Positions 12,847-20,547 of a DNA stretch of 64,000 nt are shown one piece after another. Numbering within the stretch: position 1 is the first letter of the stretch; each line of letters starts with the position of its first letter. The translations under genes were made by a program, and so were the position numbers. The stretch is from Williamsia limnetica (GTDB lineage Bacteria > Actinomycetota > Actinomycetes > Mycobacteriales > Mycobacteriaceae), in NCBI RefSeq assembly GCF_003217475.1, contig NZ_QJSP01000001.1:372001-436000 (forward strand). The letters run 5' to 3'. Below the pieces are notes generated by a model. That model worked only from the letters and a program-made list of their open reading frames with translations, searched no databases and was not told where the DNA came from.

Positions 12847-14478
<1,632 letters not shown>

Positions 14479-14503
14479 GACGCGCCAGTGTACGCCAAAA
14501 CGA

Positions 14504-14516
14504 TACGGTGCCCGTA
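14504..14516 (+). promoter_or_regulatory. Leaderless promoter of the lycopene cyclase gene
   Basis: TACGGT at 14504-14509 lies six bases before the ATG at 14516 and no Shine-Dalgarno sequence is present, so the transcript probably begins at the start codon. The -35 region is not distinct. Confidence 0.5.
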
Positions 14517-15649
14517 TGACGAACCATCTCGTCGACCTCGCCGTGGTCGGAGCCGGGCCCGCAGGCCGCGCACTTGCCCACCGGGGCGCGGCCGCGGGAC
14601 TGCAGGTGTCCCTGATCGACCCCGACGTCGACGCCCGGTGGAAACCCACCTACGCGGCATGGGCAGACGACCTTCCCGATTGGCTCGATCCGTCCGCGAT
14701 CACCGCCCGCAGCCCAACCATCGCGGTCTACACGCCGGGACGCACGGTGCTCGACCGGCCCTACGTCACTCTGGGGACGGCCGAACTGCAGCAATCGCTG
14801 GGACTCGCGGGCGTGCGCATTCATCCACACCGTGCGGACGTCGTCGGAGAAACTTCGGTGCAGCTCGACGACGGTTCTGTGGTGCGCGCCCGAAACGTGG
14901 TGGACGCGCGTGGGTTGCGTGATCGGGACGCGCCCGCGCAAACCGCGTACGGAATCGTCGTCGCACGCTCGGTGGCTGAACCGCTGCTCGATGGCGCCGG
15001 GGCCATACTCATGGATTGGCGTGGCGCACAGAGTGACTCGACGCCCACGTTCCTCTACGTGATTCCATTGGACGACGACCGGGTGCTGCTGGAGGAAACG
15101 TGTCTCGCCGCAGCGCCTGCGATGTCCATCGGCGAGCTGCGTGGTCGACTGACCTCGCGCCTGGCGCATCTCGGTCTGGACATCGATGCACTCGAGGTGT
15201 TCGACACGGAGAAGGTGCGTTTTCCGCTCGTGGACACCGTCCGCCTCCCCTGGGAACACGGCAGACCTGTGCGCTTCGGAGCCGGCGGCGGAATGCTGCA
15301 TCCGGCAACGGGTTACAGCGTCGCCGAATCATTGAGCGCAGCCGATGACCTGATCGCCGCCGTCGCGACCGGCGACGATCCGACGCAGGCGCTGTGGCCC
15401 TGGCGGGCACGGGCGGTGTACCGCCTGCGTGTGCGCGGGCTCGGAGCTCTGCTCAACCTGCCGAACTCGGAACTCGTCGGATTCTTCGAAGCGTTCTTCG
15501 CAGCTCCGGCAGGTCACCGGCGCGCTTACCTCAGCGGCCGTGTCCACCTGGCCGGAACTCTCGGTGCCATGGCCGGAACCGCTCTGCACGCGGACAGGAA
15601 ACTGGCAGGCACCATCATCCGATCCGCGATGCGTTCGACGAGCAGCTGA
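14516..15649 (+). CDS. Lycopene beta-cyclase (CrtL/CrtY type)
   Basis: Flavin-dependent cyclase that closes the ends of lycopene to beta-ionone rings. The 377 residues show an N-terminal dinucleotide fold LAVVGAGPAGRALAHRGAAAGL (8-29), the family stretch TYAAWADDLPDWL, LMDWRGAQ and FLYVIPLDDDRVLLEETCLA, and the C-terminal GGMLHPATGYSVAES, all usual in lycopene cyclases. No other carotenoid gene (crtB, crtI, crtE) is in the window. It ends three bases from the convergent AmaP-like gene. M. tuberculosis H37Rv has, as far as I recall, no such gene at this place, so it marks an insertion relative to that order. Confidence 0.87.
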   Translation: MTNHLVDLAVVGAGPAGRALAHRGAAAGLQVSLIDPDVDARWKPTYAAWADDLPDWLDPSAITARSPTIAVYTPGRTVLDRPYVTLGTAELQQSLGLAGVRIHPHRADVVGETSVQLDDGSVVRARNVVDARGLRDRDAPAQTAYGIVVARSVAEPLLDGAGAILMDWRGAQSDSTPTFLYVIPLDDDRVLLEETCLAAAPAMSIGELRGRLTSRLAHLGLDIDALEVFDTEKVRFPLVDTVRLPWEHGRPVRFGAGGGMLHPATGYSVAESLSAADDLIAAVATGDDPTQALWPWRARAVYRLRVRGLGALLNLPNSELVGFFEAFFAAPAGHRRAYLSGRVHLAGTLGAMAGTALHADRKLAGTIIRSAMRSTSS

Positions 15650-15652
15650 GAC

Positions 15653-16213
15653 TCACTTGTTGACCCCGCGATGGAGGAGCATCTGAACTTCGACGTCTGA
15701 TCCCGCGAACGACAGTTGTAGTTGATGCCGCACAGCCCTGAGCACCTCGATGAGGTCGCGGCCGTCGGCCGTCGGGTCTGCGGTGACCGTGAGTTCGAGG
15801 ATCGGTGTGCTGCCCTCGACGTAACTGCGGGTCCGGGTCGACTGGATACGACGGTGCCGCTCCAGTGACTTCGCAGCGGCCTTGCCCACATCGGAGACCG
15901 ACACCGCGCAAGTTCCACCGACCACGACGGAGTCGGCGCCGACCGACACCGTACGCACCCGGTTCGGTCGTAGGTTGGCGGCCAGCAGCCACACGCCGGC
16001 GAGCGCAAGGATCACGGTGGCGGCGAGCAAGGCCCACGCCCACCACGATTGGTCCGGTGCCGTGTCGATTGCGGTGTTGTCCACCCGCGCCACCGCGTCC
16101 ACGACGACGGCGACACCCTGCCACCACAGCACTGCCACCACGCCGCCGGCGATCAGCGCCAGTCCGGCGACGGCGACCACCAGTCGATCGATCGTGTGTA
16201 CGGTGCGCCTCAT
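15653..16213 (-). CDS. AmaP-like membrane protein of the Asp23 cluster
   Basis: Small membrane protein of 186 residues, last gene of the Asp23/Gls24 operon. Two membrane segments near the N-terminus (about 11-31 LVVAVAGLALIAGGVVAVLWW and 58-79 WAWALLAATVILALAGVWLLAA) precede a soluble domain of about 100 residues (VRTVSVGADSVVVGG through VEVQMLLHRGV). The layout is that of AmaP, the membrane anchor of Asp23 in Staphylococcus, but sequence identity was not measured. It overlaps the stop of the preceding gene by four bases (ATGA), so is translationally coupled. Confidence 0.72.
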   Translation of the reverse strand: MRRTVHTIDRLVVAVAGLALIAGGVVAVLWWQGVAVVVDAVARVDNTAIDTAPDQSWWAWALLAATVILALAGVWLLAANLRPNRVRTVSVGADSVVVGGTCAVSVSDVGKAAAKSLERHRRIQSTRTRSYVEGSTPILELTVTADPTADGRDLIEVLRAVRHQLQLSFAGSDVEVQMLLHRGVNK

Positions 16214-17211
16214 GCCGGAGCTCCTTCCGCGATGACGGGTGGGCGTGGAGGCGCTCTGTGCGCGAGCACGACCTTCGGCGGCGACTCGAGCCAGCTCACC
16301 GCGTCATCGAGCCGTTCCTGTAGCTCGGCGCCGTCCGACCCGGGTTGACCCTGCACGGTCACCTTCGCCCTGCCTCTGCTCACCGTGGTGCCGGCGGAGA
16401 CCGTGGTGTCGTCGTCCAGTGCGATCGCGCTGAGCCGTCGAGCGATGTCGGTGTCCCGGGTCCACACGCCGGGTGCGGCCGTGATGGCCCGATGGGTGCG
16501 CGCGCGGGGCCTGACGGCGTTGTAGAGCAGCCAGAGTCCCACCACGATGGCGCCGATCGCCACTACGGCCATCCAGGTCTGCCAGGGCGTGCCCGACACC
16601 CATCCGGCGGCGTCTGCCAGCCAGGGTTCGGAATTGTAGTGGCCCTGGGCCACCGCGTACTCGCGCCCGATCACCACGGCCGCGAGCACCGCAAGGAGGC
16701 CGATCAGCGCGGCGAGCAATCCTGCGGCCGGGTAGCTTCGCGGAGTGCGGTCATGTCGGGCGATCACGGGCTCAGGCGAATCTTGTTGCACAGCAACGAT
16801 TTCTGCCACCTCTTCGGTGAGCAGCAATTCCGATGGGCTCACTGCCGCGACATCCACATCCACCCGTGCGGGCCGTCGCCCGGTCAACCGCGTCAACACG
16901 TCCGCGACGTGGTGCTGCACGGAGGCTGACACCTCGGCGGCCGACGAGGGCCAGCCGATCGCGATCTCCACAGCGATGGACGGATGCCGGGAATCGGAAT
17001 CAGCCAGCGCTTTCGGCAGATTGCGGCCGGTCAGCGATCCGAGCGTCACCGAGTGGGCAACAACGCCCGGGACCTCCAGTGCGGCCTGCCGGGCGATCTG
17101 GGAGTAGACCCGCGCTTCGATGTGCAGATCTCCCCGATCGGCGGGCGGCGCCGGAGGTTGTACGTGTAGGTCGTGCGGTACCGACCGCTGCGCCACCGCG
17201 GTGTCAGCCAC
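16210..17211 (-). CDS. Asp23-domain protein with two membrane segments and a C-terminal DUF6286-like domain
   Basis: A 333-residue protein that joins an N-terminal Asp23/Gls24-like domain (about 28-125: IEARVYSQIARQAALEVPGV, then VEIAIGWPSSAAEVSASVQH) to two membrane segments (about 160-180 and 212-234) and a C-terminal domain like that of the next gene (VWTRDTDIARRLSAIALDDD). It may therefore serve as both Asp23 partner and anchor. The GTG at 17209-17211 is used; it overlaps the small membrane gene by 8 bases. The function of these fusion proteins is unknown; the Asp23 family is linked to envelope or alkaline stress in Gram-positives. Confidence 0.75.
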   Translation of the reverse strand: MADTAVAQRSVPHDLHVQPPAPPADRGDLHIEARVYSQIARQAALEVPGVVAHSVTLGSLTGRNLPKALADSDSRHPSIAVEIAIGWPSSAAEVSASVQHHVADVLTRLTGRRPARVDVDVAAVSPSELLLTEEVAEIVAVQQDSPEPVIARHDRTPRSYPAAGLLAALIGLLAVLAAVVIGREYAVAQGHYNSEPWLADAAGWVSGTPWQTWMAVVAIGAIVVGLWLLYNAVRPRARTHRAITAAPGVWTRDTDIARRLSAIALDDDTTVSAGTTVSRGRAKVTVQGQPGSDGAELQERLDDAVSWLESPPKVVLAHRAPPRPPVIAEGAPA

Positions 17212-17383
17212 GGCCCTTGCTCCGCAGCAGTACGCCGAGATCTATACGACCGTCGCGGTGCGCCCCGACCGCGAGGCCGACCGCGCCGAAGACCAGCGCG
17301 ATCAGCAGGCCGAAGAATCCGCCTGTGGTGACCGCCAACGCCAACATCAGGCCCACGATCAGCCCTAAGACGGTATTGCTCAT
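17204..17383 (-). CDS. Small DUF2273-like membrane protein
   Basis: A 59-residue protein, MSNTVLGLIVGLMLALAVTT followed by a second hydrophobic stretch (FFGLLIALVFGAVGLAVGAH) and a short basic tail. DUF2273-type small membrane proteins commonly accompany Asp23 and AmaP genes, and the shape fits. The ATG at 17381-17383 gives the compact protein; the open frame extends 22 codons further without support. AAAAGAG lies 8 bases upstream. It is in the same operon, between the HPD-motif protein and the Asp23 fusion. Confidence 0.7.
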   Translation of the reverse strand: MSNTVLGLIVGLMLALAVTTGGFFGLLIALVFGAVGLAVGAHRDGRIDLGVLLRSKGRG

Positions 17384-17412
17384 GGGAAATACTCTTTTCT
17401 CGAATCGCTCGT

Positions 17413-17679
17413 TCAGATATCGATGTATCGGACACTCCCCGGAACCCACCGGGGCAGGAGTTGTCGCCAGCGCGTTCGCCGCGGCCGGGATCGCACGAAC
17501 GTGGGGGGCGGGGCCCGCCTTGCCCTCGTCTCGAACTCGGCGTCAAGGCGGGCCAGCGCCGCATTCATGGTGTCGGACCGACCGCCGCGATCCGGATGGT
17601 GCTCGCGGATGAGCTGCCTCCGCCGCACTCGGTACTCCGGATCCGAGAAGCGGTCCGCGTCAGACCCTGGCGACGACAT
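17413..17679 (-). CDS. Small protein with a minimal J-domain-like HPD motif
   Basis: An 88-residue protein of unknown function. Its centre, YRVRRRQLIREHHPDRGG, followed by MNAALARLDAEF, resembles helix II, the HPD loop and helix III of DnaJ J-domains; helix I and IV seem absent or unrecognisable. The C-terminal third is very basic with aromatics (RWRQLLPRWVPGSVRYIDI), perhaps binding membrane or nucleic acid. The ATG at 17677-17679 lies inside the end of the preceding gene (20-base overlap), implying coupled translation. A true J-domain would engage DnaK through HPD; that is inference. Confidence 0.62.
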   Translation of the reverse strand: MSSPGSDADRFSDPEYRVRRRQLIREHHPDRGGRSDTMNAALARLDAEFETRARRAPPPTFVRSRPRRTRWRQLLPRWVPGSVRYIDI

Positions 17680-17953
17680 CCTCGACCACCACGGTTGCCG
17701 GCACACCGACCACGTCGGACGCCACGCGTTGGACCTCCGCGGCGACCGCTCTGATGTCGTCGTCGAGGAAGAGAACGACGTGGACCTCGACGCCGGATCT
17801 GTCGAGCCGGACACCGTTGACCCGACCGCCGGGCAAGTAGGTTGCCACCTCCCCGAGGACACCTCCGTGCAGCTCCGCGACCCCGTCCAGGCCGGTCACA
17901 GCGGTCGCCACCTGCTGGGCGGGGGTCACATCGTGGGTGGGCACACCGCTCAC
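17660..17953 (-). CDS. Short Asp23-like protein
   Basis: A 97-residue protein with the beta-alpha-beta pattern of the Asp23/Gls24 core: LGEVATYLPGGRVNGVRLDR, VEVHVVLFLDDDIRAVAAEV, then VVGVPATVVVEDVVARV. It lacks a membrane segment. The GTG at 17951-17953 overlaps the stop of the larger Asp23 gene by four bases (GTGA), which fixes the start. A GTG three codons later is the alternative. It probably interacts with other Asp23 proteins of this operon; this is inferred from fold and context. Confidence 0.65.
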   Translation of the reverse strand: MSGVPTHDVTPAQQVATAVTGLDGVAELHGGVLGEVATYLPGGRVNGVRLDRSGVEVHVVLFLDDDIRAVAAEVQRVASDVVGVPATVVVEDVVARV

Positions 17954-18435
17954 TGGACTCGCGGGCTGGACTGGCTGTCGGACCCGATCTCGTCGCCGTC
18001 GAGATGTACGTCGTGCACGGTCACGTTGACCTCGGCCACTTCCAGACCGGTCATCTTCTCGATCGCGTCGATCACGTTGGAGCGCACTGCCTGCGAGAGT
18101 TGGTGAATGGCGACGCCGTAGTCGGCGACCAATCCGATGTCGACGGCTGCCTGCCGCTCGCCGACCTCGACCGAAACACCCTGGGTGACGTTCGCAGATG
18201 CGCCCGGAATCGTCTCGCGCAGTTTTCCGACTGCACGAGCGGCTCCGCCGCCGAGGTCGTAGACCCCATCGACTTCGCGCGTCGCGATGCCGGCGATCTT
18301 GGCGATCACCACGTCGGCGATCGATGTCTTGCCGTGATCGCCCGCAACCACATCCCCGCCGATAGACGACGCGACGATGTCGCGGTCTTGCGCCGAACCC
18401 GTTGCGCCAACGGTCTTTGTTGCTGCAGTTGTCAT
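17950..18435 (-). CDS. Asp23/Gls24 family envelope stress response protein
   Basis: First gene of the operon, 161 residues. The Asp23 domain spans about 35-140: TSIADVVIAKIAGIATREVDGVYDLGG, then VSVEVGERQAAVDIGLVADYGVAIHQL and MTGLEVAEVNVTVHDVHLD. Soluble; Asp23 proteins gather in large amounts at the membrane under envelope or pH stress in staphylococci. The ATG at 18433-18435 has AAGGAG upstream; the open frame extends 40 codons further into the promoter region, which I reject. The operon is divergent from an ECF sigma factor, a natural candidate for its regulator. Confidence 0.85.
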   Translation of the reverse strand: MTTAATKTVGATGSAQDRDIVASSIGGDVVAGDHGKTSIADVVIAKIAGIATREVDGVYDLGGGAARAVGKLRETIPGASANVTQGVSVEVGERQAAVDIGLVADYGVAIHQLSQAVRSNVIDAIEKMTGLEVAEVNVTVHDVHLDGDEIGSDSQSSPRVQ

Positions 18436-18579
18436 GTGAATGGCTCCTTGCGTCGATGGGTCTCGATCTCGGTGGACCCGAATCTTTCCGATCCATCTAC
18501 TTAGACGACGGTCCCCGCGCAAAGTGCACGCGAGGCCACAAGTGACTTCCACCACTACCGCCTATGGCATGCTTAACAA

Positions 18580-19179
18580 GTGAACGAACAGGGCGAAGAT
18601 TCGTTGATTCGCGCCGCAGCCATCGGAGACAGACTCGCTTTTGACGAGCTCGTCCGGCGGCACCTGCGACCGCTGTTGAGTTACGCCACCCGCCTCGTGT
18701 CGGACCCGACGACGGCTGAGGACGTCACGCAGGAGACCTTCATCGCGGCCTGGCGCAACCTCCCCGACTACGAACAGCGCTCTTCATTTCGCACCTGGCT
18801 GTTCACGATCGCGTCGCGTAAGGCGATCGACCTGCGCCGACGTCGTTCGGCGATCCCGACGGAGGACGACCGACTGGACGGCCCGGACCGCCGCAACACC
18901 GACCCGTACGACCAGTACGTCGGGCAAACCCTGTTCGACGCGTTGCAGGTCGAGTTGGAGCGGTTGAGCTACCACGCCAGAGCGTGCTGGTGGCTACGGG
19001 AGGTCGAGGGCTTGTCCCACGAGGAAATCGCAACAGCCTTGGCGATCACACGAGGTTCGGTGCGCGGCCACCTGCAGCGAGCAAGGGCGCACCTGGCGCA
19101 ACAACTTGCGCCATGGAATCCGGACAGACACGATCGAAGTGAGACGCAGCGGAGCTCGACCGAACAGCGGAGAGGATGA
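18580..19179 (+). CDS. ECF-type RNA polymerase sigma factor
   Basis: Extracytoplasmic-function sigma factor of 199 residues. Region 2 spans about 20-88 (FDELVRRHLRPLLSYATRLV, DVTQETFIAAWRNLPDY, FRTWLFTIASRKAIDLRRRR) and region 4 about 120-172 (ACWWLREVEGLSHEEIATAL, ITRGSVRGHLQRARAHL). No anti-sigma gene of the zinc-binding type follows. The start is a GTG at 18580-18582. It is divergent from the Asp23 operon across 144 bases and cotranscribed with the next small gene (6-base gap), so it may control the envelope-stress operon and itself. That role is inferred from position only. Confidence 0.88.
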   Translation: MNEQGEDSLIRAAAIGDRLAFDELVRRHLRPLLSYATRLVSDPTTAEDVTQETFIAAWRNLPDYEQRSSFRTWLFTIASRKAIDLRRRRSAIPTEDDRLDGPDRRNTDPYDQYVGQTLFDALQVELERLSYHARACWWLREVEGLSHEEIATALAITRGSVRGHLQRARAHLAQQLAPWNPDRHDRSETQRSSTEQRRG

Positions 19180-19185
19180 CCTGTA

Positions 19186-19620
19186 ATGGCACAGCCCGCG
19201 AACGACAACGATCTGTGGATCGCCGACGCCGCAGCCCAACTCGGTGACCGCACCGACGACACCGACGTCTACAACAGGCTTGCGCCGAAGCTGCGCGCCA
19301 CAGTGCGGCGCGGGGTCCCGATCGCCACAGACAGCGCCGGTATCGAGGTCAACACCAGGGCGCTGCGGTTCTCGCTCGCGCGCATCGTCGGCGATGTGTG
19401 CCAACGCGAAATCGCTGCGTTGCACTTCGACACCGACGGAAAGATCATCCAACGAGTGCGTCTGGATCTGGTCGGACGCTACGACGACGAACTCGGAGTC
19501 CTCGGCGACCACGTCCGCGACACCGTGAGAGCGGGTCTGGGCCAACTGCTCGGCCCGGCCACCGGCGCACAAATAGCCATCGAGGTCCGCTGGACGGACC
19601 TCGAATCGCCTACGTCCTGA
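19186..19620 (+). CDS. Uncharacterised 144-residue partner of the ECF sigma factor
   Basis: Not a family I can name. The protein is soluble, with no membrane segment and a single cysteine (VGDVCQREIAALH). The C-terminal half (IIQRVRLDLVGRYDDELGVL, HVRDTVRAGLGQLLG, AQIAIEVRWTDL) shows a strand-helix-strand pattern that recalls the Asp23 fold in the divergent operon. It starts 6 bases after the sigma gene with AGGA nearby. Possible roles are a sigma modulator or a further Asp23-like subunit; neither is shown. Confidence 0.6.
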   Translation: MAQPANDNDLWIADAAAQLGDRTDDTDVYNRLAPKLRATVRRGVPIATDSAGIEVNTRALRFSLARIVGDVCQREIAALHFDTDGKIIQRVRLDLVGRYDDELGVLGDHVRDTVRAGLGQLLGPATGAQIAIEVRWTDLESPTS

Positions 19621-19646
19621 AACTCCGACACGCCTACCAACCGCAC

Positions 19647-19708
19647 ACGCTCCACAAATGCGAAGACGCTCCACGTATTTGTGGAGCGTCTTCGTATTGG
19701 TGGAGCGT
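19647..19708. terminator. Nested two-tier hairpin between convergent genes
   Basis: An inner perfect 14-bp stem (CGAAGACGCTCCAC at 19661-19674 with 19681-19694) has a 6-base loop. An outer stem (ACGCTCCACAAATG at 19647-19660 with 19695-19708) continues it with one mismatch and one G-T pair, giving about 28 paired positions. The 9-mer ACGCTCCAC is used once in each tier (19647 and 19666). It should terminate both the sigma-factor transcript and, from the other side, the suf transcript. Confidence 0.75.
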
Positions 19709-19721
19709 CTTGAAATGACCG

Positions 19722-20081
19722 TCAGACGGTGAAGCCGAGGGCGCGCAACTGATCACGGCCGTCGTCGGTGATCTTGTCCGGGCCCCACGGCGGCAGCCAC
19801 ACCCAGTTGAGCTCGATATCGGTGCACAGACCGGACGAGGTGATCAGGACCGAACGGATCTGATCCTCGATGACGTCGGTCAACGGGCAGGCCGCCGACG
19901 TCAGGGTCATATCGATCTTTGCCACCGCGTCGCTGTTCACGTCGAGACCGTAGACCAGTCCGAGATCGACGACGTTGATGCCGAGCTCGGGGTCCACCAC
20001 GTCACGCATGGCCTCTTCGATGTCTTCGATTTTCGGGAGCGAAGTCTGCACTTCGCCCGCCGACGCAACTTCTTCACTCAT
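19722..20081 (-). CDS. sufT: Fe-S cluster assembly factor SufT (MIP18/DUF59 family)
   Basis: MIP18-family protein that helps deliver Fe-S clusters, last gene of the suf operon. The 119 residues show AMRDVVDPELGINVVDLGLVY (residues 24-44) and LTSAACPLTDVIEDQI, with the usual reactive Cys in the latter, and the C-terminal WVWLPPWGPDKITDDG. The ATG at 20079-20081 overlaps the sufU stop by four bases (ATGA), so they are coupled. It is equivalent to Rv1466. A strong hairpin follows its stop. Confidence 0.9.
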   Translation of the reverse strand: MSEEVASAGEVQTSLPKIEDIEEAMRDVVDPELGINVVDLGLVYGLDVNSDAVAKIDMTLTSAACPLTDVIEDQIRSVLITSSGLCTDIELNWVWLPPWGPDKITDDGRDQLRALGFTV

Positions 20082-20547
20082 GCTGACTCCCTGGCCGAAT
20101 TCTCTTTGCTGACAACTGTTTGTGCCAGCGCGTCTTTGAATGCCATCCATCCGAGCAACGCGCACTTCACGCGTGCCGGGTACTTGCTGACCCCGACGAA
20201 GGCGATACCGTCGCCGATGACTTCTTCATCGCCTTCGACCCTGCCGCGCGAGGTCATCATCGTGTTGAAGGAGTCGACCGTGGCCAAGGCCTCTTCAACA
20301 GACTGCCCCACCAACTGTTCGAACATCACCGACGTCGAAGCCTGCGATATCGAGCAGCCCTGACCGTCGTACGACACGTCGGTTACCTGGTGTCCGTCCT
20401 CGGACAAGTGGACCCGCAGGGTGACCTCGTCACCGCAGGTCGGATTGACGTGGTGCACCTCGGCACCGAAAGGGTCGCGCAGCCCACGCCCCTGGGGATG
20501 TTTGTAATGGTCCAGGATCACTTCCTGGTACATCTGCTCCATGCGCA

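Follow-up and report, generated by a model that had tools for sequence, protein, structure and literature searches.

The question raised by this locus is how an Asp23 operon is controlled in an actinobacterium, and whether the extracytoplasmic function (ECF) sigma factor encoded beside it is the regulator. The locus resides in a 64,000-nucleotide (nt) stretch of the Williamsia limnetica genome (contig NZ_QJSP01000001.1, positions 372,001 to 436,000), here called the window, to which coordinates refer. Six open reading frames (ORFs) are found on the minus strand at 15653-18435, and two on the plus strand at 18580-19179 and 19186-19620. An ORF check confirmed the eight genes and the coordinates given for them in a preliminary description, as the divergent gap at 18436-18579 between the operon and the sigma gene, and the overlaps of 4 (AspA/AspB), 20 (AspB/HPD), 8 (DUF2273/AspTM) and 4 (AspTM/AmaP) nt. 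In order of transcription, the operon encodes AspA, AspB, a small protein marked by an HPD motif, a DUF2273 peptide, the membrane protein AspTM and an AmaP-like protein. The HPD and DUF2273 genes are separated by 29 nt, given the ATG start adopted for the latter. On the plus strand, 6 nt separate the sigma gene from a second small gene, called here the partner. We favour, with moderate confidence, a reading in which the sigma factor would drive the operon from a promoter in front of AspA, and the Asp23-like partner would restrain the sigma factor, the whole forming a self-contained envelope module.

The sigma factor (18580..19179, plus strand; 199 aa, GTG start assumed) includes regions 2 and 4, and exceeds the cut-offs of the Pfam families Sigma70_r2 (76.9 bits) and r4_2 (45.4 bits) and of the NCBIfam family TIGR02937 (101.4 bits). 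Three Williamsia records (L032-L034) contain versions of the protein with 95-96% identity. Co-occurrence with the operon, a check proposed in the preliminary description, was tabulated in two sets of loci. The main set (n = 23) is made of the window and 22 loci (L032-L054 without L052) picked, from 80 loci, for a similar sigma factor. AspA, AspB, the sigma factor and the partner are all present in 23/23 of these loci, and the arrangement is therefore not due to chance. Fifteen other loci from actinobacteria, whose sigma homologue is more distant, were scanned, and the remainder of the 80 were left aside; no Asp23 or partner match was found, within the stretch fetched, in 7 of the 15 (L055, L057, L060, L061, L070, L076, L078). 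The second set is centred on AspA and includes 52 loci, one for each match at E <= 5.7e-15; all the 42 genomes having Asp23, among the 61 searched, are represented, and weaker matches were not used as centres. Some of the stretches are short (L166 is a 3.5-kb contig), and because of this a gene missing from them means little. A sigma gene is located within 3.5 kb of AspA in 28/52 loci; the two genes are divergent in 22 of the 28 and have the same direction in 6. In one genome (G031), the operon and the sigma-partner pair share a contig but lie 6.4 kb apart, separated by other genes (L259, C3:173000-190000); these genes, as read from their translations, resemble a metal-uptake ABC (ATP-binding cassette) system. 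Displaced sigma factors were sought with the sigma protein in 10 sigma-less genomes, and a 41% identical match was found in G017, but no partner match. Three genomes of the same genus as the window (G005, G006, G007) feature a second, diverged Asp23-sigma-partner locus (L169, L171, L173).

A candidate sigma-specific promoter of the operon, GCGTGC-N18-CGTCTAA, is found in the divergent gap on the minus strand (18501..18531), with -35-like residues at 18530-18526 and -10-like residues at 18507-18504. CGTC-like -10 sequences fit ECF promoters. The element CGTGC-N17/18-CG(A/T)C is located upstream of AspA in 21/23 main-set loci, where first-order random sequences give an expectation of 1.26 (never more than 5 loci in 200 randomisations) and the opposite strand gives 0, a count which describes a training set, because the element was first noticed by eye in those 23 loci. 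Among the 52 AspA loci, the element is present in 14/28 loci with a near sigma gene and in 1/24 loci without (Fisher test, 0.0002). Loci of the same genus as the window are close relatives of the main set; when these are removed, the element is found in 6/17 loci with a near sigma gene, against 1/24 (Fisher test, 0.014). The single sigma-less locus carrying the element is that of G031, where the element stays at the operon and the sigma-partner pair is the one displaced by 6.4 kb. If G031 is reclassed, after the fact, as a sigma locus, the counts become 15/29 and 0/23, and 7/18 and 0/23 without the genus (Fisher test, 0.0014). A related CGTGA-spacer-CGTC sequence is found in Arthrobacter, 116-117 nt from the first aligned AspA residue in three loci (L058, L062, L063) and at 296 nt in another (L059); none was found under that pattern in L065.

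The element at 18501-18531 is the sole match in the window at one mismatch or less (0.33 expected). The whole genome holds one perfect match, that of the window, which suggests that the sigma factor is near-private. A wider regulon was considered and rejected, as 29 genomic sites are found within 2 mismatches, one perfect and one with a single mismatch, against 32 for the reversed-pattern control. A search for sigma-70-type promoters in the interval 15300-19800 found none. The promoter element, present mainly where the sigma gene is present, suggests that the sigma factor switches the six genes on. The claim of the preliminary description that an ECF sigma factor is linked to the operon is supported by synteny and by this element accompanying the sigma gene.

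The partner (19186..19620, plus strand; 144 aa) is predicted to have an Asp23-like fold. In an AlphaFold2 model (mean predicted local distance difference test score, pLDDT, 78.3), residues 41-140 are modelled with confidence (block means 83-96) and form a core arranged as helix-strand-strand-helix-strand. Residues 1-40, a weakly modelled extension, form two helices, including a stretch with the consensus WIADATRxL. In profile-profile comparisons, the partner family matches the AspA family across the C-terminal half (E 5.4e-5, probability 66.6). The Asp23 family PF03780 is matched at E <= 1 by 10/26 partner members (best 6.6e-8), five of the 26 being Arthrobacter proteins found at the same place. 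No transmembrane segment is predicted in the partner. A fold search with the partner model gave no match at E <= 0.001. The best coherent fold matches, the C-terminal domains of cation-diffusion facilitators (MamM, template modelling score 0.72 by target length), were read as sharing a small alpha-beta fold, and rejected as homologues.

The partner is tied to the sigma gene. In 25/28 sigma loci, the sigma gene is followed within 600 nt, on its own strand, by the partner or another Asp23-like gene. Two sets of loci were centred on the partner; they overlap, having at least three genomes in common, including that of the window. In the first (30 loci kept of 35 matches in 33/151 genomes), the sigma gene is located just upstream of the partner on the same strand in 29/30 loci. 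In the class-wide set (30 loci kept of 53 matches in 46/296 genomes), 12 loci correspond to other Asp23 proteins, and the sigma gene is just upstream in 18/18 true partner loci, which belong to ten genera. Among the 24 sigma-less AspA loci the partner was found, within the stretch fetched, in one only (L159, genome G032). When the 21 genomes containing the sigma-less loci were searched with the partner profile, strong matches were obtained only in G031 (E 1.1e-20) and G032 (E 7.1e-17), and therefore no further displaced sigma-partner pair was found. Seven other matches were weak (E 3.4e-5 to 5.4e-4): by coordinates, six fall within AspA matches, and one lies beside another Asp23 match of G059. 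Because of the 29/30 and 18/18 linkage, and of the restriction of strong matches to G031 and G032 among the sigma-less genomes, the partner is an element which goes with the sigma factor and not with the operon. The preliminary description had seen no anti-sigma factor. A canonical one was looked for and rejected, as no anti-sigma family of Pfam or NCBIfam is matched by the eight genes. Because of its predicted Asp23-like fold and its position just behind the sigma gene, typical of anti-sigma genes, the partner is a candidate anti-sigma factor, and the earlier statement is not supported.

Several observations weigh against a sigma factor driving the operon and restrained by the partner. No sigma gene is found near AspA in 24/52 loci, and the operon can therefore exist without it. 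Besides the training-set origin of the 21/23 count, a weight matrix built on 15 training loci exceeds the 5% null threshold in just 9/28 held-out sigma loci, two of the nine being near-identical copies, and in 2/24 sigma-less loci; this held-out test excluded nine loci close to the training ones, L157 and eight from the genus of the window. A looser pattern separates the two groups less outside the genus (8/17 against 5/24; Fisher test, 0.08). Autoregulation of the sigma gene by the element was considered and rejected, as sequences upstream of the sigma gene exceed the threshold in 4/41 loci, which is near chance. The partner itself has no Pfam Asp23 match and does not reach the PF03780 cut-off, and the family is matched at E <= 0.1 by just 3/21 Mycobacteriales partner members (best 0.0021). 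The AspA model ends in a strand-strand-helix-strand order, as does that of the partner, but is too poor (pLDDT 44.9) for the folds of partner and AspA to be compared. No partner was recognised in 3/28 sigma loci (L158, L161, L176). In G032 (L159/L131), the sole miss among the 30 partner loci, the partner is directly divergent from AspA, with no sigma gene between or beside.

Another explanation, which we regard as possible, if doubtful, is that the sigma factor drives the operon, while the partner adds one more soluble Asp23-like component to the layer or activates the sigma factor. The partner resembles the structural proteins that it would control, its tie to the sigma factor is one of gene linkage, and in G032 it is retained with no sigma gene nearby. 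Against this, the partner sits behind the sigma gene and outside the operon, and moves with the sigma gene when the pair is displaced; it is present in 1/24 sigma-less AspA loci and in 2/21 of their genomes, one of the two being the displaced pair.

It is unlikely that the operon is chiefly under the control of a CRP/GlxR-type regulator, with the sigma factor secondary or acting elsewhere. Sequences resembling TGTGA-N6-TCACA, which we take to be the CRP/GlxR consensus, are found with 2 mismatches at most, within 250 nt upstream of AspA, in 14/23 main-set loci (2.35 expected) and in 21/52 AspA loci (3.35 expected), counts obtained from related and not independent loci. The position of the box varies among relatives, the best box of the window has 3 mismatches, as found by chance, and the sigma-linked element is left unexplained by the box; the two regulators could also act together. 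In L039, L041, L049 and L054 the box is close to the sigma-linked element. As a guess, the box may link the locus, in some relatives, to the state of carbon supply. A purely accidental or inherited proximity of the sigma-partner pair to the operon is very improbable. In its favour are the 24/52 AspA loci lacking a near sigma gene and the 7/15 distant-sigma loci lacking Asp23 and partner matches in the stretch fetched; against it, the promoter element accompanies the pair even when this is displaced, and the 18 class-wide partner loci span ten genera.

The sequence of events that we propose for the sigma-driven, partner-restrained module starts from the genes, their linkage and the nearly unique promoter element, all read in the sequence. 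The ECF sigma factor would guide RNA polymerase mainly to a single site, the promoter preceding AspA. The products of the operon would form an Asp23-type layer under the cytoplasmic membrane, in which soluble AspA and AspB are retained by three membrane proteins, AspTM, the AmaP-like protein and the DUF2273 peptide. The J-like HPD protein may bring in DnaK to remodel the layer. To judge from gene linkage, the sigma factor is probably bound and held back by the partner. The partner would govern the synthesis of proteins that it resembles, and for this reason it may be able to bind the Asp23 layer and sense its state. More tentatively, the Asp23-like anti-sigma factor could report on the layer by like-with-like binding, and a damaged or short layer would free the sigma factor to rebuild it through one private promoter. 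If true, the regulator would stem from the structural protein family that it regulates.

The assignment of the operon proteins to families varies in strength. AspA (17950..18435, minus strand; 161 aa), encoded by the first gene, is a soluble Asp23 protein well above the PF03780 cut-off (102.1 bits against 28). AspTM (16210..17211, minus strand; 333 aa) combines an Asp23 domain, which passes the same cut-off narrowly (29.7 bits), two transmembrane segments and a DUF6286-like part, which just misses the PF19803 cut-off (34.1 bits against 35). These are the only two PF03780 matches in the whole genome, and both reside inside the six-gene operon. The 59-aa membrane peptide (17204..17383, minus strand; ATG start assumed) passes the cut-off of DUF2273 (PF10031; 26.1 bits against 25.4). 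The AmaP-like membrane anchor (15653..16213, minus strand; 186 aa) features two predicted transmembrane segments, the hydrophobic stretches beginning at residues 7 and 56, and misses the equivalog cut-off of NF033218 (AmaP; 42.5 bits against 55). AspB (17660..17953, minus strand; 97 aa, GTG start assumed), a small soluble Asp23-like protein, has no Pfam match of its own, and thus does not reach the PF03780 cut-off; the family is matched at E <= 1 by 4/21 AspB members (best 4.1e-5), and profile-profile comparison with AspA gave E 0.0029 and probability 10.6. A solved Asp23 structure was sought with the AspA profile, and just two irrelevant matches were obtained at E <= 1. In the preliminary description the operon was said to encode two soluble Asp23-like proteins, a DUF2273-like peptide, an Asp23-membrane fusion and an AmaP-like anchor. 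The profiles place AspA, AspTM and the DUF2273 peptide above the cut-offs and the DUF6286 and AmaP matches below, and find none for AspB and the HPD protein. The fusion is present in the window, and is a lineage variant, as many relatives have one ORF for the Asp23 part and another for the part with two transmembrane segments.

The small HPDxGG protein (17413..17679, minus strand; 88 aa) is basic, with a net charge of +9. HPDxGG is invariant in 19/19 aligned relatives, as in 10/10 further profile matches which were left out of the alignment and checked afterwards (L043 and L051, located elsewhere, and eight weaker ones). In L043 (11570-11722) and L051 (11568-11714), both Mycolicibacterium loci, the HPDxGG protein is encoded on the plus strand behind the partner, and not inside the operon. 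The protein has no Pfam match, and the J-domain models of Pfam are matched by 0/19 aligned members at E <= 1. A search of the PDB with the family profile (E up to 10) gave 7 matches. TIM14 ranks first (E 0.021) and dnj-2 second (E 0.17); two T antigens, which presumably carry J-domains, are found lower, the J-proteins ranging from E 0.021 to 0.75, and no J-proteins were recognised among the other three. The protein thus has HPDxGG in common with J-domain proteins of the TIM14/Pam18 type, TIM14 being its best PDB profile match, but differs from them in that E-values are weak and the N-terminal part of the J-domain is not recognisable. The J-like reading of the preliminary description is retained for the conserved core and the weak J-domain profile matches; a Pfam family match, and a recognisable complete J-domain, are missing. 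The HPD profile matches 19/52 AspA loci (14/28 with a near sigma gene, 5/24 without), and did not detect the protein in L035-L037; because of this, the HPD protein is an optional part of the operon.

The operon is flanked by a lycopene cyclase gene (PF05834, 209.6 bits) at 14516-15649, and, on the same side, by a gene at 12847-14577 encoding an ABC-F-like ATPase with two ABC stretches. On the other side, a FeS_assembly_P gene (19722-20165) is convergent with the partner gene. Between the two a very stable hairpin is found at 19647-19708 (-51.6 kcal/mol, z about -10). Within 3 mismatches, the palindrome at its core is present at 13 genomic places, against 0 in the control, and several of the copies feature matched changes on both arms, as members of a dispersed palindromic repeat family.

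In Staphylococcus aureus, the asp23-amaP operon is controlled by SigB, and we know of no dedicated ECF factor, sigma-linked Asp23-like partner or HPD protein for that operon. As in the window, Asp23 and the membrane anchor AmaP are encoded there by one operon, which serves envelope homeostasis; Asp23 is tethered there by AmaP, and assembles into filaments when purified (PMC6954212). The layer proposed for the window would be anchored in the membrane in a like manner. The passages available of a study of Streptomyces venezuelae report that an Asp23 gene is down after ethanol shock, and are silent on an arrangement of this kind (PMC9769785). The sigma-partner pair is similar to canonical ECF sigma/anti-sigma pairs, in which the regulator gene immediately follows the sigma gene and shares its strand, but the partner differs from canonical anti-sigma factors, having no predicted transmembrane segment and no anti-sigma family match.

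The nearest counterparts in print include the groups ECF286 and ECF292. According to the relevant passage of a 2022 review, which cites a classification paper, these are encoded beside soluble proteins of the Asp23 family for which an anti-sigma role is predicted, with no experimental data (PMC8999054). The trait of these groups, a soluble Asp23-family protein beside the sigma factor, is found in the window on both sides, with AspA on one and the Asp23-like partner on the other. The passage names no promoter, full operon or J-like protein (PMC8999054). The preliminary description had held that such a locus was not described as a system. No such description was found among the matches listed in a literature search, many subscription papers being outside its scope, and to this extent the claim stands; it has to be narrowed because the review already places ECF286 and ECF292 beside a predicted Asp23-family anti-sigma factor. 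The locus is a variant of a kind already predicted; we have not met in print the pairing rule of sigma factor and partner, the promoter element linked to the sigma factor, or the nearly private regulon. The locus supplies a circuit that can be tested, made of a sigma factor, a candidate anti-sigma factor resembling the proteins under its presumed control, and a single defined promoter sequence, and is a concrete test case for the anti-sigma role predicted for Asp23-family proteins.

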